Source of the DNA: Acidobacteriota bacterium
GTDB lineage: Bacteria; Acidobacteriota; Terriglobia; Bryobacterales; Bryobacteraceae
NCBI GenBank assembly: GCA_016870915.1
Contig: VFZY01000040.1
Coordinates: 1-37,309 of the forward strand
Reading direction: 5' to 3'
Length of the DNA stretch: 37,309 bases
In this document: piece after piece, positions 17,313 through 33,885 of the stretch
How the letters are laid out: the number at the start of each line of letters is the position of its first letter
How positions within the stretch are numbered: position 1 is the stretch's first letter
The notes under the pieces: model-generated
Databases searched by the model: none
What the model saw: only the letters and a program-made list of their open reading frames with translations
Told to the model about the DNA's origin: nothing
Program-made: the position numbers and the translations under genes

Positions 17313-20300
17313 TCAGTACCAGAACTTCATCCCGAGTTGGATCGTCCTCGGCAGCCGGGCGCTGGTGATCCGGCCGAAGGTGGGTGTTCCGAAGCTTCCG
17401 CCCGGGGCGCCGAAGTTCACGCGGTTGATGGCGTTGAAGAAGTCGCCGCGAAGCTCCAGTTTCATCCCCTCTCTCCCGGGGATTGGGAAGTAGCGGATCA
17501 GGGAGGCGTCGACGCTCACCAGCCCCGGCCCCTGGATATCGGGGAACTTCGCGCTGTTGCCCAGCGTCAGCGGCGCCGGCGCCGAGAATGCCGCGGTGTC
17601 GAACCAGCGGCCGATGGAACGGTCCGCTGCGGGCAGCGCCCCATGCCGCGTGCGGTTCGGCCGGAACTGCCGGCTGAAGGTCCCCGTGGTGATGGCCGGC
17701 TGCTGGATCCACACCTGATCGCCGCTCTGCAGCGTCAGGATGTTTGACACCTGCCAGCCGCTGGTCAACCAGTGCCGCCGCGGTAGGTCATACACCAGGG
17801 CCGACACGAAGCGGTGCGGGTAGTGCGATTGGGAAAGCCCGCGTTCCAGGCGCAGGTTGTAGGGGTCCATCGGGAACATGGACGAGAAGTTGTCCTCGTT
17901 GTAGTCCAGGAACTTCGAGAAGGTATAGGAGACGGACCAGAACAGACCCCCGCGGTACCTCCTCTCCAGGCCCAGTTGCAGAGCATTGTAGCTGGAATTC
18001 TGCAACTCGCAATGGCAGAGGATGAAGCCGTAGTCGGGATAAGGGCGCATCTGCTGCGTGCCGCGTCCGGCTCGTTGCACATCCTCGATCCGGATGACGT
18101 TGTAGTCCTGGTTGAGCATCAGATGGTGGCCCTGGCTGCCCGCGTAGGAGGCCTCGAAAAGGAACCCCCGCCACTCCTGCTGAAGGTCGAAGTTCCACTG
18201 GTTGAAGCTGCCCAGTTTCGCCCGCTCGATCTTGGTGTCGATGGCAAAGCCCCGGCCGTCGGCGCTGGGCACAATCGGGGGCGTGCGCGAAAGCACCACC
18301 GCCGCGTTCACGCCATCGCTTTGCAGCCCCAGCCGCTGATCCACTGGAAAGCGCGCAAACGCCGATGTCGCCCGCCCGGTGAGCGGGATAAAGAACATCC
18401 CGAAGTGGCTGCGGATCACCGTGCCCTTCGTTCCCGGCGGACGCCACGCCAGCCCCGCGCGCGGCGCGAAATTCACCCGGTCCGTGTACTGGATGAAATC
18501 ACGGCCCAGTTCACGCATCGTTCGCGGCCGGCCCAGCGCAAGATCGAAGTTCGACCCCTGCTGACGCGTCTCCCTGGGGTTCTGCTCCACGTCATAGCGC
18601 AGTCCCAGGTTCAGCGTCAGCGAGCGGTGCAGTTTGAAATCATCCTGCGCGAACACGCCCAGATAGCCGGACCGGTAATAGAACCGCCCCCGCAGCGTGC
18701 TGTTGTTGAACGTGTTCGCCTGCCCCAGCAGAAGGCTTGCGATGGGGTGGCCGGTGATGCCCGCATTGGACGGGTCTGCCGTCTGGTTCTGCTGGAAGGT
18801 GTACTCGCCGGTGAACTGAAGCTGCAGGTCGTTGATGGGGAACTGCCGGTAATCCACGCCGGTTTTGATGATGTGCCGCCCGCGGACGAAGGTGGTGATG
18901 TTCTGAATCTGATACTGATTCTCCACCGGGTTGAACGCCTGCGAGTCGCCAATGCCCGCGAAGCCGGCAACCGCGATGCTCGGCAGACCCACGATGTTCA
19001 GGTTCGGAATTCCCAGTTGATCGCCCGCGCCCTGGCTGAGCAGCCGCTCCTGAATGCCGCGGAACATCGATACCCGCGCGTCATTCAGCGTGGTGGGCGT
19101 GAGAGTGCGTGTCCAGGTGACAGCGCTGGTGAGGTAGCGGTTGAAGTTGCCATTGTTACCGCCGTTGCTTGAGCCCGGAAAGGGCCGCGCCGTTCCGCCG
19201 AACTGGTGATCCCAGGAAAAGCGGCCAAACAGCAGGTCTTTGTTCGAAGCACGCCAGTCGAGCCTTGTGTCGAACTTGTTGTTCCTGGTTGCGTTGGGGA
19301 TGAGGCGCTGAAAGTTCTGTGCCAGCCCGGCGCCGTTCGGTTCCGGATAGATGGCCGCGATGCGGGTGCCCGGAGTGTCGAAACGCGCCGCCGGAATCAT
19401 GTTGCCGGGGAAGGGATCCCGCAGGAAGCGCCTTCCGTCCGCCGCCAGGCGCGTCGAACCCGGGTCAAAGATCATCCCGCGCTGCACCGGGCGTCCGGCC
19501 GCGTCGGTGCCTGCGTTGGCGCCCAGCACTTCGCCAAAGTCGCCGCGTTTCATGCGCGAGGTGGGCAAAGTGAGGTTGAACAGTGCCTCTTCGGCCTGCC
19601 GGAAGCTTTCGAAATCGGCGAAGAAGAACAGCCGGTCACGCACCACCGGACCGCCAATCATACCGCCGAACTGATTCTGAATCAGCTTGGCGTTGCGGGC
19701 CGCAAACCAGTTGCGGGCGTTGATGCTGTTGTTGCGATGAAACTCGAACAGGTTGCCGGTGACGCGGTTGCCGCCGGATTTGAGTGTTGCGTTCACCACG
19801 CCGCCCACCGTTCGCCCGAACTCGGCCGACAGGCCGCTGGTTTGCACCTTGAACTCCTGAATCGCATCCAGATTCGGCTGTGTGAACAGTTGCCCGCGCC
19901 GCGGTGTGGTGATGGAGCCGCCGTCCAGCACGAACTCTCCCGTCCGCGCCCGCCCGCCGCTCAGCCGGGGCAGTTCGTCGTCCCCGCGCTGCTGCGCGCC
20001 CGGGGTAAGCAGCACCAGTTCAAACGCATTGCGGCCGCGCAGGGGCAGCTGCTTCATAGTCCGCTCATCAACCACCCGGCCCAGAGTATTGTTCTCGGTC
20101 TGAATCAGTTGTGCTTCGGCGCGAACCTCAACGCTCTCCGACACCTGCCCAAGCCGCAGCGTCACATCCACACGCAGGCGGTCTTCCACCCGAAGCGTCA
20201 CCCCGCGTTGCACATAGCGCTGGAATCCGGACGCCTCCACCTCCAGATCGTACGGCCCCGGCCGCAGTTCGCCCAGAAAGTAGAGGCCCGCCTCATTCGC

Positions 20301-20480
20301 CGCCGCCCGCCCTTCCAGGCCCGTGTTCGTGTTGCGAGCCTTCACCGTGGCGCGGGGCACCACCGCCCCGCTCTCATCCGTCACCACGCCTTGAATCGAT
20401 CCGAAGATCGATTGGGCCATCGCCGCGGAATGCGCCAGCAGCCACGCCGCCAGCACGGCCCGGCCCGCGCGGCCTACCAC
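17313..20480 (-). CDS. Oar-like TonB-dependent receptor-type outer-membrane protein (second in operon)
   Basis: About 1055 residues from GTG 20480, which overlaps the stop of the upstream receptor gene by 7 bases and yields a signal peptide (VVGRAGRAVLAAWLLAHSAA, then MAQ). After it comes a CarboxypepD_reg/CNA-B-like domain (IFGSIQGVVTDESGAVVPRA to VTLRLGQVSESVEV), a plug-like region (GRVVDERTMKQLPLRGRNAF, ELVLLTPGAQQ, EFVLDGGS, LDAIQEFKVQTSGLSAEFGR) and a very long beta-barrel ending in the aromatic residue of GMKFWY, as outer-membrane barrels do. No clear TonB box. Such proteins are expanded in Acidobacteria and probably bind large glycans or peptides. An extended frame to 20603 is antisense-like leader and was not used. 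Confidence 0.9.
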   Translation of the reverse strand: MVGRAGRAVLAAWLLAHSAAMAQSIFGSIQGVVTDESGAVVPRATVKARNTNTGLEGRAAANEAGLYFLGELRPGPYDLEVEASGFQRYVQRGVTLRVEDRLRVDVTLRLGQVSESVEVRAEAQLIQTENNTLGRVVDERTMKQLPLRGRNAFELVLLTPGAQQRGDDELPRLSGGRARTGEFVLDGGSITTPRRGQLFTQPNLDAIQEFKVQTSGLSAEFGRTVGGVVNATLKSGGNRVTGNLFEFHRNNSINARNWFAARNAKLIQNQFGGMIGGPVVRDRLFFFADFESFRQAEEALFNLTLPTSRMKRGDFGEVLGANAGTDAAGRPVQRGMIFDPGSTRLAADGRRFLRDPFPGNMIPAARFDTPGTRIAAIYPEPNGAGLAQNFQRLIPNATRNNKFDTRLDWRASNKDLLFGRFSWDHQFGGTARPFPGSSNGGNNGNFNRYLTSAVTWTRTLTPTTLNDARVSMFRGIQERLLSQGAGDQLGIPNLNIVGLPSIAVAGFAGIGDSQAFNPVENQYQIQNITTFVRGRHIIKTGVDYRQFPINDLQLQFTGEYTFQQNQTADPSNAGITGHPIASLLLGQANTFNNSTLRGRFYYRSGYLGVFAQDDFKLHRSLTLNLGLRYDVEQNPRETRQQGSNFDLALGRPRTMRELGRDFIQYTDRVNFAPRAGLAWRPPGTKGTVIRSHFGMFFIPLTGRATSAFARFPVDQRLGLQSDGVNAAVVLSRTPPIVPSADGRGFAIDTKIERAKLGSFNQWNFDLQQEWRGFLFEASYAGSQGHHLMLNQDYNVIRIEDVQRAGRGTQQMRPYPDYGFILCHCELQNSSYNALQLGLERRYRGGLFWSVSYTFSKFLDYNEDNFSSMFPMDPYNLRLERGLSQSHYPHRFVSALVYDLPRRHWLTSGWQVSNILTLQSGDQVWIQQPAITTGTFSRQFRPNRTRHGALPAADRSIGRWFDTAAFSAPAPLTLGNSAKFPDIQGPGLVSVDASLIRYFPIPGREGMKLELRGDFFNAINRVNFGAPGGSFGTPTFGRITSARLPRTIQLGMKFWY

Positions 20481-23400
20481 TGAAGCCGTCCGGCGATCTG
20501 CAGAATACGCGGATCGGCCGCGGCTGTCACTCGCCCGAACGTCGGCGCATTCTGCGTCCCAATGGGGTTGAAGAACTGCGTGTGGTTGAAGAAGTTGAAC
20601 CATTCGAACCGCAGTTGCAGCTTCCCGGCCTCACCCAGCGGCGTGAACGCGAAGTTCTTGGCCAGCGACACGTCCCATTGGTTGACGCCGAAGCCAGGCT
20701 GCGTGTTGCGTGACGCCGAACCGAACGTGCCGAAGGCCGGTGTCGAATAGGCCGCGCGGTCCAGCCCGATCAGGCCGTTTGTCCGGGGATTCACCTTCTG
20801 CGCCTTCACACCGGTCGCATTCGGCCGCTGGGAGCCGCTGCCCACGCGCGCCAGATCGCCGGCCGTGCTCACCGAAAACGGCGCGCCCGTCCGCATGTTG
20901 ACAATGCCGTTCAACTGCCAGCCGCCCAGCACCGCGTCGAGCGCCCTGTTCCGAAGATCGATCTTGCGCCCTTTGCCCAACGGCAGTTCGTTCACGAACC
21001 CAAGGATGAAGTTGTGGCGAATGTCGTTGTCCGCCAACGCCCGTTCCGGCCGCCGGTTGTACATGTTCTGGCCCGCCGCGCCGCTGTCGATTACCTTGCC
21101 GAACGTGTAGGCGCTCACCATCGAAAGGCCCTTCCACACACGCTGCTCCACGCGCACGAACGCCGCGTTGTAGTTCGACCACTGATAGTTGGTGGTCTGG
21201 CTAAAGCTTGGCAGGGCGCGCGGGAACGGTGACCGCTGGCCGAACGGTTCAGGATTGGCGGGGTTTGCGGGCAGCCGCGGCTGATTCACCAGTACTCCAC
21301 CCACCTGCTTGTGGCCCGTGTTGCCCATGTATCCCACCTCAACCATCAGGTTGTTGCCCAACTGATGCTGGATGTTCAGGTTGTAGGAGTACATGTAGCC
21401 ATCGCGGCGGCGCAGGTCATTGTTGCTTCCCACGCTGCCGGCCAGTTCGGCCGCCGTGGGGAAGAGATCCGTAAGCAGGCGCGGTGTCGCGTTCGGCAGG
21501 TTGATCACCGTGCCCTGCACGAAGAACGGCACCGTGCTGGTCATCGCCACCAGGGTCGCGCCGCCGGTGTTGAGCAGGGAAAACACACCGCCGCCCGCGC
21601 GCAGCACGGTGCGGTTCGAAACGCGATAGGCCAGCCCGAAGCGCGGCATGAAGTTGTTCTTGTCGGTGGCAATGGGCCGCTCCGGCAGCGCGAGTCCGTT
21701 GCTCTCACGCAGGCCCACGCCGGGTTCGTAGTAGCGGTTCTGGCCCGCCAGCAACTGGCGGTTCGTGCCCAGGTCAAAGTTGGCCAGGCGGCCGCGCCAG
21801 TTCTGAAACACCTCATACCGCACGCCGATGTTGAGCGTCAGCCTGCTTGTGATCTTCCAGTCGTCCTGAAAGAAACCCTGGTAGCGCGTGCCGATGGAGT
21901 ACTTCGCGACGCCGCCAAAGGTGGGAGAAATGCTTCCCAGGCCGCCCGTGGCCGATTGCGGCATCCCAAGCAGGTAGTCCGCGAAGCTCTCGTCGGTGTA
22001 AAAAGCGTTCTGGAAATTGAAAATCCCGTTCTGGTTCGATCCCTGGTCGTAGCCCACCATCAGCCGGTTCACGTCACCGCCGAACTTCAGCGAATGGTTG
22101 CCCTTGATGTAAGTGAACGTCTCGGCCAGACGGTAGTAGATGTTGTTCTGCACAATGCGCAGGCCATAGCCCGCGAACCCCGACGAGGCGCGCCCGGCGC
22201 CCGGATTCCAATCCGGAAAATTCACGCTCGGCTCGGTGTAGTCCCCGGGGATGGCCGCCAGATTGCGCAATCCCAATTCCGCCGCGTAGTTCTTACTGAA
22301 GCGGTCACCATCGCTCACGCGCGCCAGGTACGCCTTGGTGAAGCCCAAACGCGTTTCGCTGATCAGATTCGCTCCAAACGTGTGTGTGTAACCCAGAGCC
22401 GCGTTCTGCGACCGGTCCGGCCGGATCACACCCTTCCCCACCCGGTAAGACGCATCCACAAGGCCGTTGTCGGCAAAGCTCCAGCGGCCGAACAGATGGC
22501 CGCGATCGCTCACCCGGTGATCGATACGGATGGTGAACTGATCCCGGCGTTCCTTGTCCGGGGGCGTCGTGATGTAGTTCAGATTGCCCGCCAGAGGCAC
22601 GTTCGGGTCCGGGAAGAACTGAAGCAGTTCATTCGAGATCCGGTTGAAGCGCGTACGCGGAATCATGTTGCCTGGAAACGGCGTGCGGTTGTTGTTCGGA
22701 TCGCGGACGACAACGGTGGGCTTGTTCGGAACCGCCGTGAAATCGCCCTGCTTCATTGCCTGCGTGGGCACCAGGCCCAGCAGGATGTTCCCGGTGCGCC
22801 GCCGCCGGGCTTCGTAGTTGCCGAAGAAGAACGTGCGGTCTTTCTTGATCTTGCCGCCGAACGCTCCGCCAAACTGGTTGTAGGTGAAGCGCGGCGCGCC
22901 GCGGGCCGGCCGGAAGAACTGCCCCGCCTGCAGGGCGCGGTTGCGCACATAGTCGTACACCACGCCGTGATAGCTGTTGGTTCCGCGTTTGCTCACCATA
23001 TCGATGCCGGCCGCGCCCTAGCCGTAGCTGGCATCCATGAAGTTGGTCTGCACCTTGAACTCATCCAGCGCGTCCAGCGACAGCGCAATGGCCGGATTAT
23101 TGATGTTGGCCACCGAGAAATCGACGCCGTCAAGCATCGCATTGGTCGACGTGTTCCTGACGCCGCCGATCTCAATCGACCGTTCATCCATCACCGACGA
23201 CGCGCCGCGCACCTTCACCGCCCCCGGCGTCAACGCCACCAGATCATAGAAGTTGCGGGCGTTCAGCGGCAACTCGATCATGGTCCGGTTGTCGATCACC
23301 GTGCCCATCGCGGCCGTGTTCGTCTGCAATTGCGGCGCCACGGACTGCACGGAAACGGTCTCCGACACCGCGCCCAGTTGCAGCACGATATCCACGCGCG

Positions 23401-31924: not shown

Positions 31925-32170
31925 GTGACGAACTTCGAGCGAATCACAGTCGATCCAGCCCAGATGGGCGGTGTCCCGTGCATCCGCAGCATACGCATCC
32001 CCGTGGCAACTGTTCTTCGTCTGTTGGCCGGCGGTTGTTCCGAACGGGAGATCCTCGAAGAGTACCCAGATCTAGAACCAGCCGACCTTCGTGAGTGCCT
32101 GCGGTTCGCCGCTGCCTCCGCCATGGAACGCGAGTTCCCGCTGCTCCGCATCTCCCGACATCGATGTTGA
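31925..32170 (+). CDS. DUF433 family antitoxin-like protein
   Basis: An 81-residue protein, GTG start at 31925. It reads RITVDPAQMGGVPCIRSIRI followed by PVATVLRLLAGGCSEREILE and EYPDLEPADLRECLRFAAAS: the DUF433 pattern (D-P-x-x-x-G-x-P-x-I-x-x-x-R-I-P, helix-turn-helix, then YPxL). DUF433 proteins are usually the antitoxin partner of DUF5615 PIN-like toxins and sit directly upstream of them. The last residues (RISRHRC) look non-native, consistent with a deletion joining this gene to the toxin remnant. An intact toxin is absent. Confidence 0.87.
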   Translation: MTNFERITVDPAQMGGVPCIRSIRIPVATVLRLLAGGCSEREILEEYPDLEPADLRECLRFAAASAMEREFPLLRISRHRC

Positions 32171-32390: not shown

Positions 32391-33011
32391 CTACCGGACC
32401 TCAAATCGCGAGTTCCGCTCCACCGCCTCGAACCCCGCCTCTTCAATCAACCTCACGCACTCACGCCGCCGAGCCTCACCGCTCTCCAACAGGTTCCGCG
32501 ACGCCGCCTCCAGGTCGCTAGCCCCAAACCGCAGCGCAATCTGAGCCACTCGTGGCGTCATCAGCCCCCTGTGAGCCGAAACATGCGGAACCCTCAGAAA
32601 CAGCCGGGCCACCGCAACACTCTTCATATCCTCAAATCCGGACCCCAGCTCAATCGCCCCGTCGGCCACCGGATTCGCCGCCACCGGAACAACCGAAATC
32701 AACCCGTCCATCTCCCGCCACGCGGCAAATCGCGAGATCTTCCTTGCCGCCGTGTCGTCGCCCGCCTCCAGCATCGGGGGCTCTGCCCCGTCACTCGCCA
32801 TGTGAAAGGTCACCTGCCGGCCATGACGTGCCGCGCGCACCCGATCCGCCATCGCGCCCAGCGCCAGCAGGTCCGTCGTCCCAAACAGCGCCACGCCTTC
32901 GGACTCGGTCAGCGCCCGGCCGGCCTCCACGGCTTCGAAAATCGGAACAAGCCGTGAATCGGAAATCGCAATCCCGTTAAACAAGCGTGCTTCCCTCCAG
33001 CAACAGGGCAT
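32391..33011 (-). CDS. MqnE-like protein lacking the radical-SAM core
   Basis: About 206 residues. The N-terminal part (LVPIFEAVEAGRALTESEGV, then LFGTTDLLALGAMADRVRAA, RHGRQVTFHMA) matches the start of aminofutalosine synthase MqnE. The C-terminal part (GLISVVPVAANP, GFEDMKSVAVARLFL, PHVSAH, RVAQIALRFGASDLEAASRN, CVRLIEEAGFEAVERNSRF) matches its end. The roughly 180 residues between, including the CxxxCxxC [4Fe-4S] site and the TIM barrel, are absent; about 30 linker residues replace them. It cannot carry out radical-SAM chemistry. The frame is clean and translationally coupled to the MqnP gene upstream. ATG 33011 overlaps that gene by 35 bases; TTG 32984 would overlap by 8 and may be the true start. 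Confidence 0.77.
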   Translation of the reverse strand: MPCCWREARLFNGIAISDSRLVPIFEAVEAGRALTESEGVALFGTTDLLALGAMADRVRAARHGRQVTFHMASDGAEPPMLEAGDDTAARKISRFAAWREMDGLISVVPVAANPVADGAIELGSGFEDMKSVAVARLFLRVPHVSAHRGLMTPRVAQIALRFGASDLEAASRNLLESGEARRRECVRLIEEAGFEAVERNSRFEVR

Positions 33012-33885
33012 CCCCGGCCCAGAACAGAAAGAACAGCACGCCGATCCACCCGTTCACTGTGAAGAAGGCCGCGTTCACGCGCGACAAGTCGCCCGGCCGT
33101 ACCAGGCTGTGCTCATACACCAGCAGCGCGGCGGCCACCGCCACGCCCGTCACCGCCAGCCAACCCATATGGAATGCCGCCACCAGCGCCACCAGCGCGC
33201 CCAGCATCAGAACATGCAGCCCCCGCGCGATCGCCAGTGCCCGGGCCTCTCCAAACCGCTGCGGTATGCTGTGCAGTCCCGCTGCGCGATCAAACGCAAT
33301 GTCCTGGCAACTGTAGATGATGTCGAACCCGGCCGTCCAAAGCGTTACCGCCGCCGTCAACCAAAGGATTCGCCCATCCAGCGACCCAGTCACCGCGATC
33401 CAGGCCGCCGCCGGCGCAATGCCCAGCGCGAATCCAAGCACCACATGGGCCAGCGCCGTAAAGCGCTTGGTGTAGGAGTAGAAGAACACAATCGCCAAGG
33501 CCACAGGCGATAACTCGAAACACAGCGGGTTCAACATCCGCGCCGCCATCAGGAACACGAATGCCGAAACACCGGTAAATCCCCACGCGAATCCGCGCGA
33601 CAACAGCCCGGCCGGAATGTGCCGCCCCGCCGTCCTCGGGTTCCTTCCATCGATCTCCGCGTCTAACAGCCGGTTGAACGCCATCGCCGCGCTCCGCGCG
33701 CCCACCATCGCCAGTACAATCCACGGCAGCTTGGCCCAGAGAGCCCGGTCGAAGCCAAGCTCCTTCCACCCAAGAAGCGCTCCCGTCAACGCAAACGGCA
33801 GCGCAAAGATCGAGTGCTCGAACTTGATCATGTCCAGCGTCAGGATGAGCTTCCGCCAGGGGCTGGTTGGAACATTGGAGGTCAT
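32977..33885 (-). CDS. mqnP: UbiA-family prenyltransferase, MqnP type
   Basis: A 302-residue integral membrane prenyltransferase. It begins with IKFEHSIFALPFALTGALLG, the mark of the putative futalosine-pathway (MqnP) and 4-hydroxybenzoate-type UbiA enzymes. The first Asp-rich motif is NRLLDAEIDGRNPRT and the second is DIAFDRAAGLHSIPQRFG; both would bind Mg-diphosphate. Eight to nine hydrophobic spans follow. It would attach a polyprenyl chain to a menaquinone ring precursor in the cytoplasmic membrane. The MqnE-like gene immediately downstream favours MqnP over UbiA proper. Divergent from a DUF192 lipoprotein gene, with 28 bases between the starts. Confidence 0.88.
   Translation of the reverse strand: MTSNVPTSPWRKLILTLDMIKFEHSIFALPFALTGALLGWKELGFDRALWAKLPWIVLAMVGARSAAMAFNRLLDAEIDGRNPRTAGRHIPAGLLSRGFAWGFTGVSAFVFLMAARMLNPLCFELSPVALAIVFFYSYTKRFTALAHVVLGFALGIAPAAAWIAVTGSLDGRILWLTAAVTLWTAGFDIIYSCQDIAFDRAAGLHSIPQRFGEARALAIARGLHVLMLGALVALVAAFHMGWLAVTGVAVAAALLVYEHSLVRPGDLSRVNAAFFTVNGWIGVLFFLFWAGDALLLEGSTLV

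Follow-up and report, generated by a model that had tools for sequence, protein, structure and literature searches.

A clean reading frame without a radical-SAM core

Why does a gene for a homologue of the aminofutalosine synthase MqnE still have a clean reading frame behind mqnP when most of its radical-SAM core is missing? The gene in question lies on the minus strand of the window, which is the whole stretch of 37,309 nucleotides that was analysed and corresponds to contig C40 of genome G000 (assembly of 6.6 Mb in 367 contigs). Its frame (32391–33011) has 206 codons between the ATG at 33011 and the stop codon at 32391–32393, zero internal stops, and a product of 206 aa. An alternative TTG start at 32984 would give 197 aa; nine bases upstream of it stands GGAGG (32994–32998, minus strand, inside mqnP), which, judged from the sequence, may be its ribosome-binding site. 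The upstream gene, mqnP (32977–33885, minus strand), overlaps the frame by 35 nt if translation starts at the ATG and by 8 nt if it starts at the TTG. Its product matches UbiA-type prenyltransferases (6e-53) and, below their cut-offs, the MqnP models (280.8 bits vs 420 for NF041584), and the gene marks the mqnP-mqnE locus of relatives. The clean frame and the overlap had both been described in a first-pass annotation of this DNA and are borne out; the coordinates given there, 32391–33885, hold as the span of both genes but not for the MqnE-like gene alone, which ends at 32391 and starts at 33011 or 32984.

The protein is indeed an MqnE homologue in two pieces, as had been recognised from the letters alone. 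Residues 14–71 (32799–32972, minus strand) form an N-terminal part that ends at the strand preceding the Cys loop of MqnE, residues ~72–79 (32775–32798, minus strand) form the junction at which most of the radical-SAM core is missing, and residues ~80–206 (32394–32774, minus strand) form the C-terminal part. In an alignment of the window protein with 17 full-length MqnE, the break falls after VTFH and the re-entry near the conserved TMLYGH region; CX3CX2C is absent together with its entire segment. The C-terminal part retains 'MTPRVAQIALRFGA', which is found in the MqnE of relatives, and has lost the D-G-T..EE..AGA segment; its indels are in frame. Both terminal segments are homologous to MqnE: the best NCBIfam model is TIGR03700 (MqnE; E 3.8e-18), with a match that is split in two stretches and whose 65.5 bits do not reach the curated cut-off of 434.55 bits. 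The better stretch aligns residues 121–204 with model positions 257–349, and the models for MqnC and CofH rank next. Pfam CofH_C (PF19288) is matched with 13.8 bits (E 0.054), below its gathering score of 27 bits, and the sole PDB sequence match (phmmer) is MqnE 6xi9, to which residues 27–70 and 124–170 align as separate pieces. The GC content by codon position (0.69/0.51/0.75) is coding-like; that of mqnP is 0.62/0.48/0.80.

Elsewhere in the window, a short DUF433 gene (31925–32170, plus strand; PF04255, 4.9e-23) and two adjacent genes for OMP_b-brl_4 outer-membrane beta-barrel proteins of 1096 and 841 aa (17313–22999, minus strand) were observed. DUF433 genes are often paired with a toxin gene. 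In the OMP_b-brl_4 pair, CarboxypepD_reg is matched only by the 1096-aa protein.

Relatives at the mqnP-mqnE locus

In relatives, the position behind mqnP is that of mqnE. The first-pass annotation had set full-length MqnE in all relatives against its own reading, and for MqnE this is what the locus presents: the 29 best-scoring loci of the window's family, f1, all encode a full-length MqnE with CX3CX2C, and 27 of them have mqnP immediately upstream, the remaining two being cut by contig ends. The family of similar-length homologues next to mqnP that had been looked for did not appear. Among the matches listed for 237 family genomes, eight of which gave no match at all, a search with a two-row profile returned no MqnE of similar length beside mqnP, and G000 was the only genome with a core-less MqnE. 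No other case was among the matches listed when the window protein was the query (200 family genomes, and the genus, represented by one species in the genome set) or when a three-row profile was run against 399 genomes of the class. The two-row profile gave weak MqnE matches in some family genomes, for example G056, G070, G110, and G140.

Three short frames were considered as further core-less MqnE and rejected. In G006 a run of N lies inside the gene, and in G129 the gene runs off the contig. The 147-aa frame behind mqnP in G198 (L072, contig C599) looks broken, its N-terminal and C-terminal portions being encoded in separate frames. Short frames are also listed for G074 and G039, among others.

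The window protein shares 34 to 42% identity with the MqnE of other lineages and 38 to 42% with that of its own family; identity thus hardly separates the two, and orthology therefore rests on the position behind mqnP. In a wider tree of the ends, the window protein has a long branch and groups weakly (0.71) with Geothrix, not with its own family.

A second, full-length mqnE in the same genome

A full-length mqnE, whose presence elsewhere in the genome had been proposed as a check, was found on contig C31 of G000. It encodes the motif SNVCYLSCQFC, adjoins an mqnA-like gene, and exceeds the TIGR03700 cut-off (454.8 vs 434.55 bits). Furthermore, a full-length mqnC is present on contig C163. In a FastTree phylogeny, the C31 MqnE sits next to the MqnC outgroup on a long branch, apart from the MqnE of the family, and the ends of the window protein are only 25% identical to it, compared to 38 to 42% for the family's MqnE. 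MqnE of the C31 type was recovered at E ≤ 1e-115 in 2 of 395 other genomes of the phylum, with 52 to 53% identity; nothing closer was found in this search of 396 genomes, and the MqnE case is without replicate. The C31 gene was probably acquired from elsewhere, before the core of the native gene was deleted.

The mqnE and mqnA-like genes on C31 (L068, 5608–7445) share 4 nt, and the two may have been acquired together. Beside the native mqnC, the stretch of C163 examined showed no mqnA match; in the family genomes that were read, mqnA precedes mqnC. The model matched by the mqnA-like genes, PF02621, covers MqnA and MqnD alike, and which of the two these genes encode is presumed from their position.

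Disarmed MqnC in related genomes

Cyclic dehypoxanthinyl futalosine synthase (MqnC; TIGR03699) offers a parallel within the window's own family. Two species of genus g51 have a core-less MqnC (G050, contig C79, 162 aa; G213, contig C95, 171 aa) whose gene shares 26 nt (G050) or 4 nt (G213) with an mqnA-like gene. The same site in 11 of 11 genus mates examined holds an mqnA-like gene, a full-length mqnC, and an antisense TPR gene, and in the seven whose flank reaches that far, the row is preceded by a radical-SAM gene that we read as QueE-like. In both core-less MqnC, the junction lies at a point equivalent to that of the window protein, although the parent enzyme is different.

This recurrence bears on the suspicion that a misjoin in the assembly removed the core from a normal mqnE. 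G000 is in 367 contigs and is the one genome to show a core-less MqnE, both of which would fit an assembly error; but an equivalent junction in the MqnC of two other genomes, and retained ends that are strongly diverged and carry in-frame indels, are not what a misjoin is expected to leave, and we consider such an error very improbable.

G050 and G213 each have, elsewhere in the genome, a divergent full-length MqnC with NVCVAQCDYC, which we term type-2. Type-2 is a distinct MqnC-like group that stays below the curated cut-off of TIGR03699 (312.9 vs 428.1 bits for G050). Because the motif is present and no other intact MqnC was found, within a genome that in the case of G213 is 62% complete, type-2 is probably the working MqnC. 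The type-2 proteins of f1 and f10 (L154, 1590–2687; relatives at L199–L213) are 73 to 81% identical to that of G050, and since the genus mate G213 (81%) is no closer to G050 than are f10 genomes (up to 81%), the sequences suggest transfer of type-2 MqnC. Another g51 genome, G195, has two type-2 MqnC (contigs C53 and C622; L249 and L250), which share 81 and 80% identity with the G050 protein.

A class-wide profile search first flagged a second set of cases in family f10, which appears to be Acidobacteriaceae-like. Here, 17 distinct shortened MqnC of 266 to 325 aa were found, and CX3CX2C is present in 0 of 17. A glycosyltransferase-2 gene (PF00535) stands beside all 18 Cys-less loci, the protein of G319 repeating that of G288; such a gene also lies within 1.5 kb of 11 of 26 full-length f10 mqnC loci and directly adjoins the intact mqnC in G271, G346, and G362. 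This shared neighbour supports disarming in place, which we regard as well supported for some of the Cys-less MqnC and as likely for the rest. No mqnA-like gene was seen in the flanking stretches examined around Cys-less mqnC, and operon coupling is therefore no obvious reason for retention of the gene. In a tree of the Cys-less proteins of f10, those of g100 form one clade, apart from intact g100 sequences, and those of g119 and of g120/g154 form others; the cysteines were lost at least once.

The disarmed and the divergent forms go together. In a draw of 180 f10 genomes, type-2 MqnC was present in 12 (G466, G288, G293, G265, G621, G359, G458, G571, G588, G557, G310, and G595), and 12 of 12 hold a Cys-less native-type MqnC, a pairing that is counted from the type-2-positive genomes, native MqnC having been read in part of the type-2-negative ones; the Cys-less MqnC of G595 lies in two pieces, each at a contig end. 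Three of 237 f1 genomes have type-2: G050 and G213, which encode the core-less protein, and G195, which is 79% complete and in 840 contigs and in which neither a core-less MqnC nor any MqnE was detected. In a set of 19 genomes whose state was known when they were selected, type-2 is present in 15, and the four without it (G000, G271, G462, and G470) have an intact native MqnC. Short MqnC frames were also among the matches listed for G544, where the frame starts 35 bases from a contig start, and for G610.

Selection on the disarmed proteins

The Cys-less MqnC are constrained throughout, core included. For ten Cys-less proteins of g100 (45 pairs, with 2, 6, and 10 pairs left out for the N-end, core, and C-end where dS was saturated or <0.05), the median dN/dS is 0.061 in the N-end, 0.158 in the core, and 0.079 in the C-end, with mean amino-acid identities of 0.92, 0.77, and 0.87. 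Values in the same order are 0.065, 0.143, and 0.109 for three further g100 proteins and 0.076, 0.233, and 0.127 for all 17 Cys-less proteins; the g119 Cys-less pair stands at 0.31 to 0.38. Among full-length MqnC, dN/dS is 0.107/0.109/0.056 (N-end/core/C-end) for a set of 13 and 0.048/0.077/0.031 for those of g119, in which identity is 0.94/0.94/0.97. Invariant columns, in a tally that counts gaps as change, make up 38/9/25% of the N-end/core/C-end in the 17 Cys-less proteins vs 71/76/81% in the 13 full-length ones, and gaps fill 0/17/6% of these regions in the Cys-less MqnC.

The idea that selection is concentrated in the two ends had to be weakened: compared to full-length MqnC, substitutions in the Cys-less proteins clearly spare the N-end more than the core, whereas the ratio of substitution in core and C-end is about the same in both, and the N-end alone is distinctive. 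The case for a special role of both ends therefore rests mainly on the N-end, on the placement of the deletions, most of which in Cys-less MqnC affect the core, and on the core-less pair. For that pair, a codon model gives an omega of 0.18 on the terminal branches, 0.29 on the stem, and 0.02 on the background, with saturated synonymous distances, one background branch at its bound, and a fixed tree. On the terminals, which date entirely from after the core loss provided that the pair shares it, omega = 1 is rejected (2dL 42.6, p = 6.7e-11, 114 codons), and so is equality with the background (p = 1.6e-7).

It is imaginable that the disarmed proteins bind a metabolite of the pathway and act as a regulator or sink, and not as a scaffold. 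Constraint on the whole remaining fold of the g100 Cys-less MqnC fits a kept pocket and a kept surface equally. Against a pocket, the stretch that aligns with DGT..EE..AGA is shortened or lost in most Cys-less MqnC and in every one of the three core-less proteins, whose remaining barrel is, moreover, too small to make one readily; this renders metabolite binding unlikely in our estimate.

The first-pass annotation had proposed a conserved non-catalytic protein. Disarmed proteins of the CofH type in relatives, and the purifying selection on them, speak for this part of the proposal; a family of core-less MqnE was not found among the matches listed. Nothing ties the window protein to MqnP as an assembly partner, as had also been suggested, and the disarmed MqnC adjoin an mqnA-like or a glycosyltransferase gene instead.

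Divergence of the window protein

A core-less MqnE was found in one genome only among the matches listed, and the argument for a function of this gene is one by analogy, resting on the MqnC parallel. The window protein is 39 to 41% identical to relatives that themselves share 67 to 79% with L006. The branch of the window protein has an omega of 0.157 against a background of 0.042, and omega = 1 is rejected (p = 1.3e-7) on a branch that is saturated, lies at its length bound, and includes the time before the deletion.

These data have to be weighed against decay, in which the native mqnE became redundant after arrival of the second copy, lost its core in frame, and has been drifting since with a frame that is still open. 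In favour of decay, a core-less MqnE was found in a single genome among the matches listed; its divergence is accelerated, with an omega about four times that of the background; and conserved residues are gone, among them the DGT..EE..AGA segment and the tryptophan (W) of KAYW. Moreover, in simulated neutral drift (400 runs each), 52% of runs still had an open frame at 90% identity, as did 7% at 57%, which corresponds to the full excess divergence of the gene, so an open frame fits decay to an extent that depends on the amount of drift. On the other hand, omega = 1 is rejected on the branch of the window protein, saturated as it is, the indels of the C-terminal part are in frame, codon-position GC is coding-like as in mqnP, and the parallel proteins of MqnC descent are constrained. 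Decay is the main rival reading for this gene, though we hold it to be less probable than not.

Predicted fold

Whether the two parts could pack together as in MqnE had been raised as a check on structure, and in the models they do, with an input alignment of full-length MqnE. AlphaFold2 with 17 aligned MqnE gave a model of the window protein with a pLDDT of 83.9 and a pTM of 0.85. The solved structures nearest to it are MqnE 6xig and 6xi9 (Foldseek TMq 0.67–0.71), and superposition on MqnE yields a VIA Z of 17.2 over 200 aligned residues with an rmsd of 4.0. The model of the core-less MqnC of G213 has a pLDDT of 86.1 (Z 17.6, rmsd 2.3 over 167 aligned residues). For both, the input alignments are rich in full-length enzymes, and the MqnE-like packing is partly suggested by the input.

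A model for retention of the disarmed protein

In sum, we propose, with a probability of roughly 55%, that the native mqnE of this genome was disarmed in place, that a divergent mqnE took over, and that the remnant was retained for a non-catalytic role. The window gene would be the genome's own mqnE at its native place behind mqnP, from which the radical-SAM core was lost in frame, and the divergent full-length mqnE beside the mqnA-like gene on C31 would now perform the chemistry. A compact module is predicted to form from the N-terminal helices together with the last beta/alpha units, and this module may work in the futalosine pathway as a scaffold or binding subunit, its partner being, for instance, the newcomer MqnE or the next enzyme in line. 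This scaffold role is our best guess and the least supported part of the model. Retention of the window protein for a function free of catalysis is supported by the MqnC cases, in which a disarmed native-type protein recurs alongside a divergent intact one and is under purifying selection.

A broader version of the model is more tentative, and we hold it to be less probable than not. Here, MqnC and MqnE would both have a second, catalysis-independent function that resides largely in their ends; after takeover by another copy, the Fe-S loop and then the barrel could be lost while the ends must stay, and the window protein would be the end point of this process for MqnE.

The window protein resembles MqnE (PDB 6xi9 and 6xig) in its N-terminal helices, its C-terminal segment, its site behind mqnP, and the predicted packing of its ends; it differs in having no core, no CX3CX2C, and little of the barrel, and in the resulting score (65.5 vs 434.55 bits). 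With the disarmed MqnC it has in common that the Cys loop or core is lost, that the ends are kept, and that another site in the genome encodes an intact divergent enzyme, but those proteins are of MqnC descent, are found in several species, and are encoded next to an mqnA-like or a glycosyltransferase gene. Pseudoenzymes, catalytically dead relatives that are kept for binding or scaffold roles, are a known kind, and the proteins described here are like them in having lost catalytic residues with selection on the rest. Unlike in pseudoenzymes in general, most of the catalytic domain is gone here, and it is the native copy that is disarmed, catalysis having probably passed to a divergent one.

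No core-less, truncated, or Cys-less MqnE or MqnC was found in the open-access literature by title or start of abstract. The portion of PMC3914697 that was available has a row for five Acidobacteria proteomes, and in that portion the terms "paralog," "inactive," and "truncat" do not occur. Takeover by a divergent copy, followed by dismantling of the radical-SAM barrel with the rest kept, is a variant that we did not find described in the open-access literature.

If the model is true, the futalosine pathway has a non-catalytic component that has gone unrecognised. The disarmed proteins would be a natural separation of function: loss of the Cys-less protein in a type-2 strain spares the catalytic enzyme, so that a second job of the native protein is directly testable. 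The series from Cys-less to shortened to core-less proteins may furthermore indicate to what extent a radical-SAM barrel can be taken apart with the rest still under selection.
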